The notes under the pieces were generated by a model. It was not told the DNA's origin, did not search any database, and saw only the letters and a list, made by a program, of their open reading frames with translations. A DNA stretch of 64,000 nt from Ilumatobacteraceae bacterium. Its GTDB lineage: Bacteria; Actinomycetota; Acidimicrobiia; Acidimicrobiales; Iamiaceae. The DNA lies in NCBI GenBank assembly GCA_025463265.1, contig JAOBWH010000123.1, forward strand, positions 17,970-81,969, given 5' to 3'. The number at the start of each line of letters is the position of its first letter. Positions within the stretch are counted from its first letter, which is position 1. Position numbers and translations under genes: made by a program. Positions 1,133-11,625 of the stretch are shown piece by piece.

Positions 1133-2644
<1,512 letters not shown>

Positions 2645-2757
2645 CCCCCGGCCGGGCCGGCCCACCGCGGACGTGCTGGTAGCTTCGTGGGCCGGTTCCG
2701 GCGGATCGGCCCCCGGACCGTGGCGCCCCTCATGTGGGGCGGGAGAGCGGGTCCCCG

Positions 2758-3954
2758 GTGCGAGCACGAGCACGAGCAGCTGCGGTCATCGCAGCGATGG
2801 CGGTCACGGCGGGACTCCTGGCGACGGCGGCGCCCGCCGGCGCCGTGTCGGACGGCTACTGGGACTACCGGTCGCTGAGCGTCTCGGGCACCTACCAGCC
2901 GCTGGTCGGATCGTTCGGCGGTGACGGTGCCGACGACATCTTCTGGTACGCCCCCGGCACCACGGCGGACTCCCTGTGGCTCGGCCAGGCGGCGAGCCGC
3001 GGCGCCAGCGCGTTCACCCGCAAGCCGATGGCGGTCTCGGGCTCGTTCAAGCCCACGGTGGGCGACTTCGCCGGCAGCGACCTCGATGACATCTTCTGGT
3101 ACGCCCCCGGGGCCGGCAAGGACTACCTCTGGATCAACAAGGGCGACGGCACCTTCACATCGAAGGCGTACACCATGGGCGGGAACTTCACCCTCCACCG
3201 GATGCTGGACTACCGGGCCGACCACAAAGACGACCTCTTCGTCCACTGCGTGAACTGCAGCGCCACGAGCTACGAGTGGCACTTCTCCGATTCCGGGTCG
3301 GGGAACTACACGTCTCGTCAGATGGGCGGCATCGGCGGCAAGCGCCCCGTGATCGGCGACTGGAACGGCGACGGCATCGAGGACCTGTTCCTCCACGGAC
3401 CGGGGAACCAGAACCCCGATCTTCGCTGGTCGATGACCGATGACGGCACGTGGGAGCAGAAGGTGTACTCGATCTCGGGGACCTACGAGCCGGTCGTCGT
3501 GTACCAGGTGCCCAACGACGCCATCTTGTTCTGGGGCGGCGAGCGCGGGCCCGAGGCCTACTGGTGGAGCGACGGCACGAACTTCGCCAACAAGGCGGTT
3601 CGTTCCGTCACCGGCTCGGGCCGGGTCACCCCGTTCCCGCTCGGGGCGGCGGTCGTGTCGGGGCCCTACGTCTACGACGCCCTCTTCATCGGCACCGAGT
3701 CCGCCGGCGAGTTCTACGACCTCGCCCAGACCGGCCACGAGAAGGCCAACGAGGTCCCCATCATCGGCGACTTCAACGACGACGGTTGGTACGACATCGT
3801 CTGGTACAAGGCCGGACCGGGCACGGACGAGGTCTGGTACCTCGAGCCCCAGACTGCGGACCGCGCTGCGCTGCGGGGCCTCCAGGTGGGCCCCCGCCGC
3901 GACGCCGAGCCATCGGCTGAGGCAGCGACGCTCGACGGCACCTCCGCCCCCTGA
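2758..3954 (+). CDS. Secreted repeat protein, predicted seven-bladed FG-GAP/VCBS-like propeller (paralog A)
   Basis: Signal peptide (VRARARAAAVIAAMAVTAGLLATAAPAGA); about seven ~45-50 aa repeats with DDIFWYAPG-like and GDWNGDGIEDL-like Ca-loop motifs; GTG start after GGGAG. Confidence 0.8.
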   Translation: MRARARAAAVIAAMAVTAGLLATAAPAGAVSDGYWDYRSLSVSGTYQPLVGSFGGDGADDIFWYAPGTTADSLWLGQAASRGASAFTRKPMAVSGSFKPTVGDFAGSDLDDIFWYAPGAGKDYLWINKGDGTFTSKAYTMGGNFTLHRMLDYRADHKDDLFVHCVNCSATSYEWHFSDSGSGNYTSRQMGGIGGKRPVIGDWNGDGIEDLFLHGPGNQNPDLRWSMTDDGTWEQKVYSISGTYEPVVVYQVPNDAILFWGGERGPEAYWWSDGTNFANKAVRSVTGSGRVTPFPLGAAVVSGPYVYDALFIGTESAGEFYDLAQTGHEKANEVPIIGDFNDDGWYDIVWYKAGPGTDEVWYLEPQTADRAALRGLQVGPRRDAEPSAEAATLDGTSAP

Positions 3955-4118
3955 CCCGGGTTCGGCGACCAGGCCCGCACAGTCCTGCATCGAGTCCATG
4001 CTCGGAGCGTGACCGCGCCCACACGGGGTGTGGTGTCCACTGCTAGGTTGCGCCCGGGCTTCCGGCGGATCCGCCGCCGCCCTCGGCGCTCCGCTCGGCG
4101 GGGAGAGAGCAGAAGAAC

Positions 4119-5273
4119 GTGAAGACACGAGTTGCGGCCGTCCTGTTGGCGGCAGCGGCACTGGCGGGCCTGCTGGCCTCACCTGCCGCCCACGCGGAGA
4201 CCGATCAGATGTGGGACTACCGCGCCATGACGGTCAGCGGGTCGTTCATCCCGCTCACCGGTCAGTTCGGCGGCGATGCCGCCACCGACATCCTCTGGTA
4301 CGCGCCCGGGACCGGCGCCGACTCGCTGTGGATCGGCAACAAGGCGAAGCGCGGTTCGGCCGCGTTCACCCGGGTCCCGCTCACCATCAACAAGACCTAC
4401 ACGCCGATCGTCGGCGACTTCTACGGCGACGACTACGACGACATCATCTGGTACGCCCCGGGCACCGCGCCGGACTCGGCGTGGGTCTCCGACGATGTCC
4501 CCGGCTACTTCACGAACCGGTCCATCAAGATCAACGGCACGTTCAAGCCCACCGTCCTCCACGACTACAGCGCGATGGACCGCAAGGACGACATCGTCTG
4601 GTACGCCCCCGGGTCGGCCAAGGACTACGTGTGGCACATGAACGAGATCGGGGACGGCTCCTACACCACCGTGAACCTCTCGATCTCCGGCACGTTCCAG
4701 GTGGTGGCCGGGGACTGGAACGCCGATTACCTCGAGGACGTCGTGCTGTACGCCCCCGGCACCGCCAAGGACTACCGCTGGGCCAGCAAGGCCGACGGCT
4801 CCTTCGCCGCCTCGTCGCTCACCGTCAACGGCAACTTCCGACCGCTGACGATCTACCAGACCACGGGTGACGGCATCTTGTGGTGGGGCGACGGCACCGC
4901 CCCCGACGCCTACTGGGTGCGCCAGGGAGCCACGTTCCGGTCGATCTCGATCCCGCAGGTTCCGGTGCGCGGCGCGACCTACACCCTGGGCCTCCAGGGC
5001 GCAGCGGTCATCGTGCCCGACGACATCGACGGCTACTTCTACGGCGAGCAGTCCAAGGGCGACTGGTACGGCCTCACCATGGGCGGGCACGACATGACCA
5101 CCCAGCGAGCGATCGCCGGCGACTTCGACGACGACGACTGGACCGACGTCCTCTTCTACGGCAAGGGCGCCACGAAGGACGAGATCTGGTACACGAACGC
5201 TCCGGCCCAGGCCGACGGCGGAGCACCCACCCAGAAGCACGGCGAGAAGGCCACGCCGGTGGCCGTCCGCTGA
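4119..5273 (+). CDS. Secreted repeat protein, predicted seven-bladed FG-GAP/VCBS-like propeller (paralog B)
   Basis: Signal peptide MKTRVAAVLLAAAALAGLLASPAAHA; WDYRAMTVSGSFIPL..DILWYAPGTGADSLWIG parallels paralog A blade 1; repeated WYAPG. Confidence 0.8.
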   Translation: MKTRVAAVLLAAAALAGLLASPAAHAETDQMWDYRAMTVSGSFIPLTGQFGGDAATDILWYAPGTGADSLWIGNKAKRGSAAFTRVPLTINKTYTPIVGDFYGDDYDDIIWYAPGTAPDSAWVSDDVPGYFTNRSIKINGTFKPTVLHDYSAMDRKDDIVWYAPGSAKDYVWHMNEIGDGSYTTVNLSISGTFQVVAGDWNADYLEDVVLYAPGTAKDYRWASKADGSFAASSLTVNGNFRPLTIYQTTGDGILWWGDGTAPDAYWVRQGATFRSISIPQVPVRGATYTLGLQGAAVIVPDDIDGYFYGEQSKGDWYGLTMGGHDMTTQRAIAGDFDDDDWTDVLFYGKGATKDEIWYTNAPAQADGGAPTQKHGEKATPVAVR

Positions 5274-5295
5274 GGCGCTGACGCCCCATCTGAAC

Positions 5296-5325
5296 CCTGC
5301 GGCCGCCCTCCGGGGCGGCCGCAGG
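5296..5325. terminator. Strong hairpin, 13-bp stem with TCCG loop
   Basis: CCTGCGGCCGCCC-TCCG-GGGCGGCCGCAGG downstream of paralog B. Confidence 0.7.
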
Positions 5326-5412
5326 CGCGTCCGGAACCCGTCGCCGGCCAGGGTTCGGGGCCCCCGGGGCCGTTGCGTAGACTCCTACCTTTCCCCAACC
5401 GGGTTCGAGGAG

Positions 5413-6549
5413 ATGTCCGTGGCTGAAATCGAGATCGGCATGGGCAAGACCGGTCGTCGGGCCTACGGCCTCGACGACCTGGCGCTGGTCCCGTCGCGGC
5501 GCACCCGGGATCCCGAGGACATCGACCTGTCCTGGGAGATCGATGCCTTCACGTTCGACCTGCCGATCATGGCGTCGGCCATGGACAGCGTCGTCAGCCC
5601 GGCCAGCGCCGTCGCCATCGGGGAACTGGGCGGCGCGGGCGTGCTGGCCCTCGAGGGGCTGTGGACCCGCTACGACGACCCCGAGCAGGTGCTCGCCGAG
5701 ATCGCGGGCCTCACCGAGGCCGGCGTGGCCGACGACCGGGCCACGGCTCGCCTGCAGGAGCTCTACGCCGAGCCCATCAAGCCCGAGCTCATCCGGGACC
5801 GCATCAAGGAGATCCGCGGCGCCGGCGTCACGTCGTGCGCATCGATCACGCCCCAGCGGCTCCCGGCGCTCGCCGATGCCCTCCTCGCCGCCGAGCTCGA
5901 CCTGCTCGTCGTCCAGGGCTCTGTCGTGTCGGCCGAGCACGTCACCAAGGACGGCGACCCGCTCAACCTCAAGACGTTCGTCCGCCGCTTCGACATCCCC
6001 GTGATCGTCGGCGGCTGCGCCAGCTACCAGGCGGCCCGCCACCTGATGCGCACCGGCGCCGCCGGGATCCTCGTGGGGGTGGGCTCGGGCGCCACCTCCA
6101 CCACCCGCCGGGTCCTCGGTGTGGGTGCGGCCCAGGCCACCGCCATCGCCGACGCCCGCGCCGCCCGCATGCGCCACCTCGACGAGACCGGCGTCTACGT
6201 GCACCTCATCGCCGACGGTGGCATCCGCACCGGCGGCGACATCGCCAAGGCCGTCGCCTGCGGGGCCGATGCCGTGATGATCGGCGCACCGCTCGCCGCC
6301 GCCTCCGACGCACCGGGCCGCGGCTGGCACTGGGGGCTCAACGGCGGTCACGCCGATCTGCCCCGTGCCGAACGCGTCCCCGCTCCGCCGGTGGGCACGC
6401 TCGAAGAGGTGCTCGTCGGACCCGCCCACCGCAGCGACGGGAGCACGAACCTCGCCGGCGGCCTCCGCCGCTCGATGGCCTCGTGCGGCTACCGCACGCT
6501 CAAGGAGCTCCAGAAGGCTGAGCTCACGATCACCCCGGTGCACCCATGA
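5413..6549 (+). CDS. guaB3: GuaB3 family IMP dehydrogenase-like protein (no CBS domains)
   Basis: IMPDH-type barrel ([27 protein letters not shown]) without CBS pair; next to guaA; catalytic-loop Cys position is Ser. Confidence 0.9.
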
Positions 6550-8144
6550 CGAACCCGACCGACCCGACGAACCCGACCGATCCCATCGCCGCCCTGGCCG
6601 CCTCGGAGACGGGGCCCATCTTGGTGGTCGACTTCGGCGCCCAGTACGCCCAGCTCATCGCCCGGCGGGTCCGCGAGGCGCACGTGTACAGCGAGATCGT
6701 GCCCCACACGATCACCGCAGCCGAGGTGGCCGCCCGCAACCCGGCGGGCATCATCTTCTCCGGCGGACCCAAGTCGGTCCACGTCGAGGGCGCGCCGGTC
6801 ATCGACCCCGCGGTCTACGACCTCGGGACCCCCGTGCTGGGCATCTGCTACGGCGCCCAGCTCATCGCCCAGCAGCTCCCGGGCGGCGTCGTCGCCAACA
6901 CGGGCGTCGGCGAGTACGGGCGCACCGAGCTGACCGTGTCGGCCCCCGACGCCGTGGTGTTCGGCGGCGGCCAGCCGGCCACCCAGCAGGTCTGGATGAG
7001 CCACTTCGACTCGATCTCGACCCCGCCCGACGGGTTCTCCATCACGGCCTCCACCCCGGCCGCCCCCGTCGCCGCCATGGAAGATGTGGCCCGCAAGATC
7101 CACGCCGTCCAGTTCCACCCCGAGGTGGTGCACACCCCGCACGGCCAGGCGGTCCTCCAGCACTGGCTCTACGACGTGTGCGGCTGCCCGCCCTCCTGGG
7201 TGATGAGCTCGGTCATCGACACCCAGATCGACCTCATCCGCAAGCAGGTCGGCGACGCCAAGGTGATCTGCGCGCTGTCCGGCGGGGTCGACTCCGCCGT
7301 GGCGGCCGCCCTCGTGCACAAGGCCATCGGACCCCAGCTGACCTGCGTGTTCGTCGACACCGGGCTCATGCGCCTCGGCGAGGGCGAGCAGGTCGTCGAG
7401 ACGTTCCAGCGCCACCAGGGCATCGAGCTCATCCACGTCCGCGCTGCCGAGCGCTACTTCGAGAAGCTCGAAGGCATCACGGACCCCGAGGACAAGCGCA
7501 AGGCCATCGGCGAGCTGTTCATCCGCATCTTCGAGGATGTCTCCGGCGGCATCGAGGACGCCAAGTACCTCGTCCAGGGCACGCTCTACCCCGACGTCAT
7601 CGAGTCCGGCACCGCCAGCGCCGCCAAGATCAAGAGCCACCACAACGTGGGCGGCCTCCCGGAGGACATGCAGTTCGACCTGGTCGAGCCGCTCCGGGCC
7701 CTGTTCAAAGACGAGGTCCGGGCGGTGGGCAGCGAGCTGGGGCTCCCCGACGAGATCGTCTGGCGCCAGCCCTTTCCCGGACCGGGGCTGGGGGTGCGCA
7801 TCATCGGCGAGGTCACGCCGGACAAGGTGGCCATCCTCCAGCGGGCCGACGCCATCGTCCGCGAGGAGATCCGCTCGGCCGGCCTCGAGCGCGAGATCTG
7901 GCAGGCGTTCGCCGTGCTGCCTGACATCCGCTCGGTCGGGGTCATGGGCGACGAGCGCACCTACGGCTACCCGGCCATCATCCGAGCCGTCACGTCCGAG
8001 GACGCCATGACCGCCGACTGGGCCCGGCTCCCGTACGACCTGCTCGAGCGGATGTCCTCTCGCATCATCAACGAGGTCGACGGCATCAACCGCGTGGCGT
8101 ACGACGTGACCTCCAAACCCCCGGGCACCATCGAGTGGGAGTAG
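6546..8144 (+). CDS. guaA: GMP synthase (glutamine-hydrolysing)
   Basis: Class I amidotransferase ([27 protein letters not shown]), ATP pyrophosphatase ALSGGVDS, C-terminal [13 protein letters not shown] overlap with guaB3. Confidence 0.97.
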
Positions 8145-8328
8145 CCGCCTGGCGCTGAGCCGGGGGCGGAGCGCAGGTCACGTCGCTCCACACGGCTCCG
8201 CCGCCCAGGGGTGTGGTCACGTCCGATGACCTGAGAACCCTGCAGTTCGGGACGGATCCGCCGATAGGAGATCCACCCAGGTGGGTGACCACAACGCGGC
8301 AAGGTGCCGTTACGGTGCGAAGGAACGT

Positions 8329-11300
8329 ATGGATCCGGACACGACGGCCGAGGGAGGGCGGGTCGGTGCCTCGGGCAGCGAGGCCACCAACCTCGGTGAC
8401 CGTCACGCCGATGACGTCGCCGCGCTCCACCGCGTCGCCAGCCTCCCGCCCGGTGATCCCGACGAGCGCCTGATCCAGCTGGTCGGCGCCGGCTGTCGCG
8501 CCTTGGGCGTGGGACGCGGGTTCGTGCTCCTGCGAGCGCCGGTCGGGCTCAGCGTGCGCATCGTGGCCGGACCGGACCCGGTGGGGCCCGCGGCCGGGGA
8601 CACCGTGTCGGACTGGCGCCTCGACGACGTCTTGTCCCGGCAGGCCACGGTGGCGACGCTCGGCGGCCCCGGGGCCAACCACGAGCAGGCCCCGCTGGGC
8701 GGCGGCTCGATGGTCGCCTGCCCGCTCTGGGTCACGGGCCGCGTCGCCGGCGCCATCGCGTTCACCGGCGCCACGGCCCGCGAGCCGTTCTCCTCGTGGC
8801 AGCTCGCGCTCGTGGACCTGGTGGCTGACGGCGTGTCGCGGGTCCTCGAGCACGAGGCCGACATCCGCGCCATGGTCCGGCTCGAGTCGCAGGCCCAGGC
8901 CATGATCGATCTGATGCCGGACCCCGTGGTCCGGCTCCGGCGCGACGGCCAGCAGTTGTCCGACGACGGCGGTCACGTGCTCGGCGTGTTCGACCCCACG
9001 GCTGGCGCCCGGCCCGCCGGAACGCCGGCGGACCCGGCCACCCTGCAGCTGGTGCAGCAGGCGGTCGCCGCCGCCCTCGACACCGGTCGTCTGCAGACCG
9101 ATGTCTACGCGGCCGGTCCCGGGCTCGACGCCCGCCGGGTCGAGGCCCGCTTCGTCCCCGGCGACGGCGACGTGGTCCTGTGCATCGTCCGCGACATCAC
9201 CGAGCGCCACCGAGCCGAGCTGGCTCTGGCCGAGCAGGTGGCCTTCGAGGCGCTCGTGGCCTCCATCTCCACCCGGCTGATCGGCTGCGCACCGCTGCTG
9301 CTCGACGATGCCATCGAGGTGGGGCTGGGAGAGATCGCTTCGTTCTTCGGAGCCGACACCGCGTTCATCGACGAGCTGGCCCCCGACGGGTCGACGCTGC
9401 GCGTCTCGCACCAGTGGTCGCGCCGGAGCACGGTCCCGACCCGGGTCCGCGGCCAGAAGGTCGACGTCAAGGGGTTCGGCTGGCTGACCGCCCGCTTCGA
9501 GCGGGCGGGGCACGTGTTCGTGCGCGGCCCGGGGACCATCCCCCGCGAAGCCACCGAGCAGGCCCTCGTCGACGCGGACGACAAGGGCGTGCTCTGGGTC
9601 CGCCTCGGCTACGGCGGCGAGCTCGTGGGCGTGCTCGGCCTCACCTGGCGCACCCACGAGCCGCCGCCGTCCGATGAGGTCCTCGGCCTGGTCCGGTTCG
9701 CGGCCGACGCCTTCCTCGGTGCGCTCCGACGCCGCAGCGTGGCCCTGCTCGCCGACGGCCAGGCCGAGGTGTTCGAGCTCATCGCCCGCGGCGCCCCGGT
9801 CGCCACGGCCATCATCGCCGCCCGGGCCCTGCTCGAACGGCACACCCTCGGCGCCAAGGTCGTCATCGCCACGGTCGAGGAGGAGGGACGCCTGTCGCTC
9901 GTGACCGAGTCCGACGAGCCCGACGAGGAGGCCCTGGCCGCCTGGTTCGCGGCACTCGAGCCCGGCCTCGGCAACCCGTTCGGCCAGGCCGTGATCACCG
10001 GCGAGCCGGTCATGGTGGCCAACGCGCTCGGGGACCCCCGCTACACCCACCCCGTGCTGCCCGATGACTCCTGGCGATCGGCGACCATCCTGCCGGTCCG
10101 CTCGCCTCGCAACGGCCGGACCCTGGCCCTCGTCGGCCTGCTGGCCGCCGAGCCCGGTGCGCCCATCGCCCGCCCTGCGGTGCGGGACTCGGTCCTGTCC
10201 CTGGTCACGGTGGCCGTGGAACGAGACATCGACGAGCGGCGTCTGGCGCACCAGGCCACCCACGACCCCCTCACCGGTGTCGGGAACCGGGCCGCCCTGC
10301 TCGACCGGTTGACCCTCGCCCTCGCCCGGGCCCGGCGGTCGGGCCGCAACGTCGCCGTGCTGTTCTGCGACCTCGACGGCTTCAAGTCGGTGAACGACCG
10401 CTTCGGCCACGACCGCGGCGACCGCCTCCTCGTCGAGGTGGCCGAGCGCATCGGACGCGCCGTGCGGCCGTCGGACACGGTCTGCCGGACCGGGGGCGAC
10501 GAGTTCGTGATCGTCTGCGAGGACCTCACCGACGCCGATCAGGCCCACACCATCGCCGCCCGCGTCCGGTCGGTGGTCGAGGGCAGCGCGGTCGACGTGG
10601 GCGAGCGCCACCTCCACGTGACGGTCAGCGTCGGCGTCGCCCTGGCCGACCTGCCCGCCGACGACCCCGACCGCCTGCTGCGCACCGCGGACCTGGCGAT
10701 GTACGCCCACAAGCAGGCCCGTGCCGCGGGCGAAGGTGGAGCCGAGGTCGTGGTCGCCGACCTCAGCGGCGACGGCGACGTCGCCTCGGACGCAGCCGGC
10801 GGGGCCGAGCCGCACCTCCGTGCGCCTGGCGCCCACCCCGTGGCGCAGCGCACGGACCCGTTCGGGATCGACCTGGCCGAGGCCATCGAAGGCGACCGTC
10901 TCCACCTCGTGCACCAGCCCCTCGTCGGCCGGGACGGCTCCTTGGCGGGCATCGAAGCCCTGGTGCGCTGGAACCACCCGGTCCTCGGTGCCGTCGGCCC
11001 GATCCGGATCCTGTCGGCTGCGGCCAACGACGACCTGGCCGGCCCCCTCGGGCGCTGGGTCCGCCGGGCGGCGCTGGCCGACCGCCGCCGCTGGCTGGGC
11101 CACCTCGGGCCGGCGGCGCCGGTGCCGGTCCACCTCAACCTGTCCGAGGCCGAGCTGGCGCTGCCCCACCTCACCGACGCCCTGCTGGGTGAGCTCGAGG
11201 AGGCCGGCGTCGGCCCCGACGCGGTCGTGCTCGAGATCCGCGAGCGGCACCTTGCCGACCCCGACCTGCGCGCCGTCGTGGCCACGCTGGCCCGAGCAGG

Positions 11301-11625
11301 GCTGGCCGTCCTCGTCGAGAACGCCGGCCAGGGCGGCCTGTCGCTGGGCGAGCTGGCCACCCTGCCGGTGCGGGGCTTGAAGCTCGGCCCCGCCCTCGTG
11401 GGCCAGATCAGCCTGGACGAGCCCGCCGGCGTGGAGGTGGCCCGCTCGCTCGTGATCCTCGCCCACGGCCTGGGGTGGCGGAGCCTGGCGGTCGGCGTGG
11501 AGACGGAGCACCAGCGCGCCGTGCTGTTCGGCTTCGGCGTCGAGGCCGTCCAGGGCAAGGTCGCCACCATGCCGCTCGATCGCGACGACCTCCTCGCCTG
11601 GCTCGATCACCGCTCCAGCGCCTGA
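8329..11625 (+). CDS. GAF-containing GGDEF/EAL protein; intact GGDEF and RxxD, degenerate EAL
   Basis: RTGGDEFVIV with upstream RPSD; IEALVRWNHP but DDFGTG position reads VENAGQG; start chosen at ATG after AAGGA. Confidence 0.88.
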   Translation: MDPDTTAEGGRVGASGSEATNLGDRHADDVAALHRVASLPPGDPDERLIQLVGAGCRALGVGRGFVLLRAPVGLSVRIVAGPDPVGPAAGDTVSDWRLDDVLSRQATVATLGGPGANHEQAPLGGGSMVACPLWVTGRVAGAIAFTGATAREPFSSWQLALVDLVADGVSRVLEHEADIRAMVRLESQAQAMIDLMPDPVVRLRRDGQQLSDDGGHVLGVFDPTAGARPAGTPADPATLQLVQQAVAAALDTGRLQTDVYAAGPGLDARRVEARFVPGDGDVVLCIVRDITERHRAELALAEQVAFEALVASISTRLIGCAPLLLDDAIEVGLGEIASFFGADTAFIDELAPDGSTLRVSHQWSRRSTVPTRVRGQKVDVKGFGWLTARFERAGHVFVRGPGTIPREATEQALVDADDKGVLWVRLGYGGELVGVLGLTWRTHEPPPSDEVLGLVRFAADAFLGALRRRSVALLADGQAEVFELIARGAPVATAIIAARALLERHTLGAKVVIATVEEEGRLSLVTESDEPDEEALAAWFAALEPGLGNPFGQAVITGEPVMVANALGDPRYTHPVLPDDSWRSATILPVRSPRNGRTLALVGLLAAEPGAPIARPAVRDSVLSLVTVAVERDIDERRLAHQATHDPLTGVGNRAALLDRLTLALARARRSGRNVAVLFCDLDGFKSVNDRFGHDRGDRLLVEVAERIGRAVRPSDTVCRTGGDEFVIVCEDLTDADQAHTIAARVRSVVEGSAVDVGERHLHVTVSVGVALADLPADDPDRLLRTADLAMYAHKQARAAGEGGAEVVVADLSGDGDVASDAAGGAEPHLRAPGAHPVAQRTDPFGIDLAEAIEGDRLHLVHQPLVGRDGSLAGIEALVRWNHPVLGAVGPIRILSAAANDDLAGPLGRWVRRAALADRRRWLGHLGPAAPVPVHLNLSEAELALPHLTDALLGELEEAGVGPDAVVLEIRERHLADPDLRAVVATLARAGLAVLVENAGQGGLSLGELATLPVRGLKLGPALVGQISLDEPAGVEVARSLVILAHGLGWRSLAVGVETEHQRAVLFGFGVEAVQGKVATMPLDRDDLLAWLDHRSSA

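Follow-up and report, generated by a model that had tools for sequence, protein, structure and literature searches.

Exported seven-bladed VCBS/FG-GAP propeller proteins in a variable gap between guaB and guaB3 of an Ilumatobacteraceae bacterium

Within the window, a 64,000-nucleotide stretch of an Ilumatobacteraceae genome, two neighbouring genes between guaB and guaB3 encode exported members of the known VCBS/FG-GAP superfamily, and both the fold and the family assignment are supported by the computational analyses described here. Taking these data together, we consider it reasonably probable that the two proteins, termed A and B, are ancient single-domain propeller paralogues that act in extracellular binding and sit in a permissive gap without any tie to GMP synthesis.

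Position, fold and family of proteins A and B

Genes A (2758..3954, plus strand, 398 aa) and B (4119..5273, plus strand, 384 aa) each encode an exported seven-bladed FG-GAP/VCBS propeller protein and start with GTG, the start sites being placed by the purine-rich Shine-Dalgarno-like stretches that can be read upstream of them. On the same strand, guaB (1166..2644; TIGR01302, 602.7 bits) forms the left border of the variable interval and guaB3 (5413..6549; TIGR01304, 509.8 bits) its right border, followed by guaA (6546..8144; NF000848, 780.3 bits); all three were named by passing NCBIfam equivalog cut-offs. As the 5' end of guaA overlaps the end of guaB3, the two are probably cotranscribed. With these neighbours, the verified frames and coordinates, and the Sec-type signal peptide that can be read at the N-terminus of both A and B, the initial annotation of two exported proteins between guaB and guaB3-guaA holds. 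A reading of both sequences found no transmembrane or LPXTG-type anchor.

Several further features of the region were recorded. The start of guaB3 is probably the GTG at 5419 rather than the ATG at 5413, as GAGGAG abuts the ATG and relatives often have GTGGC, and downstream of guaA (8281-11625) the translation reads as a large multi-domain protein with a GGDEF-like stretch. The orthologue of A in genome G008 (L083:4499-5656) has a lipobox-like LAAC and may, unlike A itself, be a surface-anchored lipoprotein. The short C-terminal tail of B (e.g. 5241-5270) and those of several relatives are alike (ATPVAVR, ATPFVVR, TPFAER, ATPIIPR) and come after a disordered linker.

The propeller fold and the count of seven blades, first proposed from the repeats in the translations, were both recovered by structure prediction. 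AlphaFold models of A and B (mean pLDDT 81.0 and 81.5, respectively; pTM 0.82 each) contain 28 strands by DSSP, arranged as seven blades of four in a closed propeller that spans residues 35-365 of A (2860..3852, plus strand) and 32-362 of B (4212..5204, plus strand). In both models the N-terminal strand (A 35-40, B 32-37) closes blade 7, and completion of the last blade in this manner is the usual form of propeller closure. Both are single-domain proteins, consisting of a lone propeller and a signal peptide.

A blade HMM trained on 11 homologues, taken only from other genomes or loci, matched 5-6 blades per protein at up to 66 bits, compared with a maximum of 4.4 bits in 400 shuffles; the repeats are therefore not a product of chance. 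In both proteins the profile recognised blades 1-4 and 7 (blade 3 of A weakly, at 13.6 bits), whilst blade 5 gave a weak match in B and none in A, and blade 6 went undetected in either, in line with the earlier reading of blades 5 and 6 as degenerate. An Asp-rich AB loop is present in blades 1, 2, 4 and 7 of 12-13 of the 13 full-length homologues. In A, the Ca-loop-like motifs noted earlier in blades 4 and 7 conform to the canonical Dx[DN]xDG loop, whereas the corresponding segments of B (DWNADY and DFDDDD) have acidic residues without the final Gly, which leaves metal binding by B uncertain. The CVNC pair reported for blade 3 of A and missing from B was likewise found, at residues 164-167 (3247..3258, plus strand) in the loop between strands b and c; these are the sole cysteines of A, and the pair occurs in no other full-length homologue.

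Foldseek searches against the PDB returned nearly exclusively beta-propellers, including LGI1, KICSTOR subunits, the Psathyrella velutina lectin (PVL), PLL lectins, TcB and integrin alpha-V, with TM-scores of only ~0.5 that indicate a fold class and not a closest relative, and that do not single out the lectins. When A, B and a profile built from the 13 homologues were searched by sequence against solved structures, no meaningful match emerged. The family assignment comes instead from FG-GAP_3 (PF13517), for which A passes the cut-off (39.0 versus 26.9 bits); B itself is sub-threshold at 20.3 bits, but its orthologue in genome G009 scores 39.2 bits, so that both proteins can be placed in the VCBS/FG-GAP superfamily. 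The same model matches all 13 homologues at E<=0.01, and the cut-off is passed by the tested gua-locus orthologues. The initial annotation had allowed that A and B might belong to an already characterised family with known function; this proved right for the family and not for a tested function. With the VCBS/FG-GAP_3 propellers they share the blade motif, seven blades, Asp-rich AB loops and a signal peptide, and their sub-group differs from these in a WYxPGxxxDxLW b-c loop and in the two decayed blades, 5 and 6.

Promoter-like elements and hairpins around the two genes

Scans for sigma-70 TTGACA/TATAAT motifs and for U-tract terminators found none, and the TANNNT scan and search for U-less hairpins were chosen after these standard motifs had given nothing; Rfam had no match over 2300-5700. 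Upstream of A we found a promoter-like element consisting of TAGCTT, 10 nt and TTCCGGCGGATC (2680..2707, plus strand), and upstream of B its counterpart, TAGGTT, 10 nt and TTCCGGCGGATC (4044..4071, plus strand), in which GGCGGATCCGCC, a perfect palindrome, overlaps TTCCGGCGGATC. The whole 4.05 Mb genome has just two copies of the 12-mer (2696-2707 and 4060-4071), and in both cases TAGNTT lies 10 nt upstream and the start codon, that of A or B respectively, ~50 nt downstream; by our own estimate from base composition, ~1 copy would be expected genome-wide by chance, and a reversed-pattern control yielded zero copies. Its retention before both genes, while the coding sequences are only 40% identical, points either to joint regulation or to local recombination, and suggests that A and B are co-regulated through a common 12-bp promoter-proximal element. 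In addition, a TANNNT box lies 37-78 nt before the start in six of the seven gua-locus propeller genes examined across genomes, five of which carry the more specific TAGNNT (0.4 expected).

The right border of the gap has motifs of its own. A promoter-like block upstream of guaB3, GCGTAGACTCCTACCTTTCCC (5375..5395, plus strand), is conserved in 11 genomes whatever the gap holds, with the consensus GTAGGCTCGGACCTTTCC and TA, TC and CTTT invariant in 11/11, and looks like a separate guaB3 promoter. Between B and guaB3 lies a perfect 13-bp hairpin with a 4-nt loop and no U tract (5296..5325, plus strand), likely to be the transcript end of B; in genome G003 a 15-bp hairpin with another sequence occupies the equivalent position, after the second propeller copy.

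Turnover of the gap and history of the pair

We then compared the guaB-guaB3 gap across the genus. Propeller genes fill it in our genome (G000, two), in G003 (two), and in G008, G009 and G010; a methyltransferase gene is found there in G004, G006 and G011 (L086, L088 and L111), a glycosyltransferase gene in G005 (L087), and a gene for a META-domain protein in G007 (L110), whilst in G015, from another genus, the gap is empty and measures ~210 bp (L092). The sister genomes G007 and G008 (99/98 in a guaB+guaB3 tree, much of which is unresolved) carry different gap genes. The gap is thus a small turnover hotspot, its content falling into five kinds among the genomes compared, and it is this turnover that accounts for the presence of propellers among purine genes. 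Neither PHROGs nor PADLOC gave a match, so no phage or defence link emerged, and the absence of matches to plasmid and phage records means that no mobile carrier was seen. Together with the motifs of the propeller genes and the guaB3 block described above, the turnover makes A and B look like guests lodged between two transcription units and not like parts of a gua operon. Their placement in a purine locus, which the initial annotation called unexpected, is real, and is largely explained by the synteny survey and the conserved guaB3 block.

The history of the pair was traced in the 13 full-length homologues, which were collected, aligned and used to build a tree. A scan of genome contigs with a single protein gave no match, whereas an alignment query identified 47 loci, and the relatives carrying homologues belong to the Acidimicrobiales. 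In the tree, the partner of A is the only gua-locus copy in G008 (99/99) and the partner of B the only one in G009 (97/95), both orthologues coming from the same genus; an AU test, under the model used, rejects a topology in which A and B are sisters (p 1.5e-5). As each is closer to another species' gene than to the other, A and B are old paralogues that are now neighbours. G003 (Aquihabitans sp. G128) has two gua-locus copies that are mutual nearest relatives (84/82) and probably reflect a separate, younger duplication. A recent foreign origin of A and B was also considered and rejected, as their GC3 values (0.92 and 0.94) are neighbour-like and there is no excess of rare codons. Elsewhere in the same genome, contig C156 (L112) has a further local cluster of the family, with genes for three propeller proteins of ~370-410 aa in tandem.

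Two other accounts of the locus have to be set against these data. If the propellers served purine metabolism, for example as extracellular purine sensors or carriers, they would have been kept beside guaB, and five genomes of the genus do hold a propeller in exactly this gap. Yet five other genomes have unrelated genes there and G015 has none, propeller homologues in G004, G012 and G021 lie outside the gua gap (with no conserved partner gene evident in the G004 neighbourhood), guaB3 has a promoter-like block of its own, and exported proteins cannot act directly in cytoplasmic GMP synthesis; we accordingly regard such a role as very improbable. That the pair arose recently in this species, by tandem duplication on the spot, as the adjacency, common strand, identical architecture and shared 12-bp leader element of A and B might suggest, is scarcely credible in view of their ~40% identity, the rejected A+B clade and the pairing of each with a different species. 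The whole-gene duplication proposed in the initial annotation thus stands as an event of the distant past, since paralogy holds, but not as a local one. A more elaborate version of the turnover reading, in which the gap would be set aside in the genus for swapping surface or envelope genes (propeller, glycosyltransferase, META lipoprotein, methyltransferase) and the propeller pair would be a system of two lectins, co-regulated and equipped with its own operator, seems to us unlikely.

Fusion partners and the candidate role outside the cell

Members of the core VCBS group have signal sequences and are exported (PMC8023676). The same work describes lone-propeller 'actinolectins' in actinobacteria, the function of which was uncharacterised as of 2021 (Pereira and Lupas 2021, PMC8023676). 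By their published description, these resemble A and B in being actinobacterial, in having a signal sequence and in consisting of a lone propeller. A and B differ in having no GW motif in their D-A' loops, the feature by which the supercluster's lectins are connected and which forms the sugar pocket of PVL and tachylectin-2 (PMC8023676): in a listing of the blades, GW was found in 0/7 D-A' loops of A and 0/7 of B, which mostly have G[TSN][YF] instead. PVL itself (2BWR/4UP4) is also a seven-bladed VCBS propeller with Dx[DN]xDG AB loops and is among the top solved folds for B (Foldseek, E 3.9e-5), but it is 12-16% identical to these proteins, which are putative carbohydrate binders. The propeller of integrin alpha subunits, another Foldseek match for B, shares the seven blades, the FG-GAP-type repeats and the Ca-loop type; in A and B, by comparison, FG-GAP/Cage or Ca motifs are not found in all blades (5 and 6 being degenerate), and no integrin domains adjoin the propeller.

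Fusion proteins offer a further line of evidence. Run on the ORFs of every locus retrieved, the blade HMM matched 71 distinct proteins, and in Pfam searches of the longer ones the same propeller is fused to GH43 in our own genome (contig C102, L018) and in two relatives, as well as to CHAP, Amidase_2, M23, trypsin-like (four), subtilase (two), arylsulfotransferase (ASST) and beta-lactamase-like domains, with GH5 as a marginal case. These partners are enzymes expected outside the cytoplasm, several of which act on polysaccharide or the cell wall. Given that VCBS propellers typically bind carbohydrates, and also proteins (PMC9218822), the likeliest role for A and B is that of a free, lectin-like extracellular binding module, and they are probably sugar- or surface-binding proteins.

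What the ligand might be is the point at which the readings diverge. The lack of the GW pocket motif counts against a lectin, and the proteases among the fusion partners, found in several relatives, suggest by analogy that the ligand may be a protein. Since integrin alpha heads and modules for protein-protein contact also belong to the superfamily (PMC8023676, PMC3192720), A and B could be protein-binding or structural surface proteins, such as a matrix scaffold or an integrin-like adhesin, and not glycan binders. The glycosidases and peptidoglycan hydrolases among the other fusion partners and the absence of a transmembrane or LPXTG-type anchor on reading either sequence speak against this, and we view it as a serious but doubtful alternative.

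In the favoured reading, that of free binding modules lodged in a permissive gap, A and B would each be transcribed from their own promoter and jointly controlled through the common element just downstream of the -10 box. Once outside the cell, metal held in the Asp-rich AB loops would stiffen the propeller, which would bind a glycan or other polymer of the envelope or matrix. The two proteins would then do alone what the propeller appendage does on secreted glycosidases, cell-wall hydrolases and proteases, with no functional tie to GMP synthesis, and would simply occupy the space between two transcription units.

Turnover of guests in a single gap largely removes the puzzle of secreted proteins in a purine locus. 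A and B are well-modelled, small, stand-alone members of a very large superfamily, the bacterial members of which are almost all uncharacterised. As the same propeller occurs both alone and on glycosidases, wall hydrolases and proteases, identifying a single ligand would help to interpret many 'VCBS repeat' proteins that have an annotation but no explanation.
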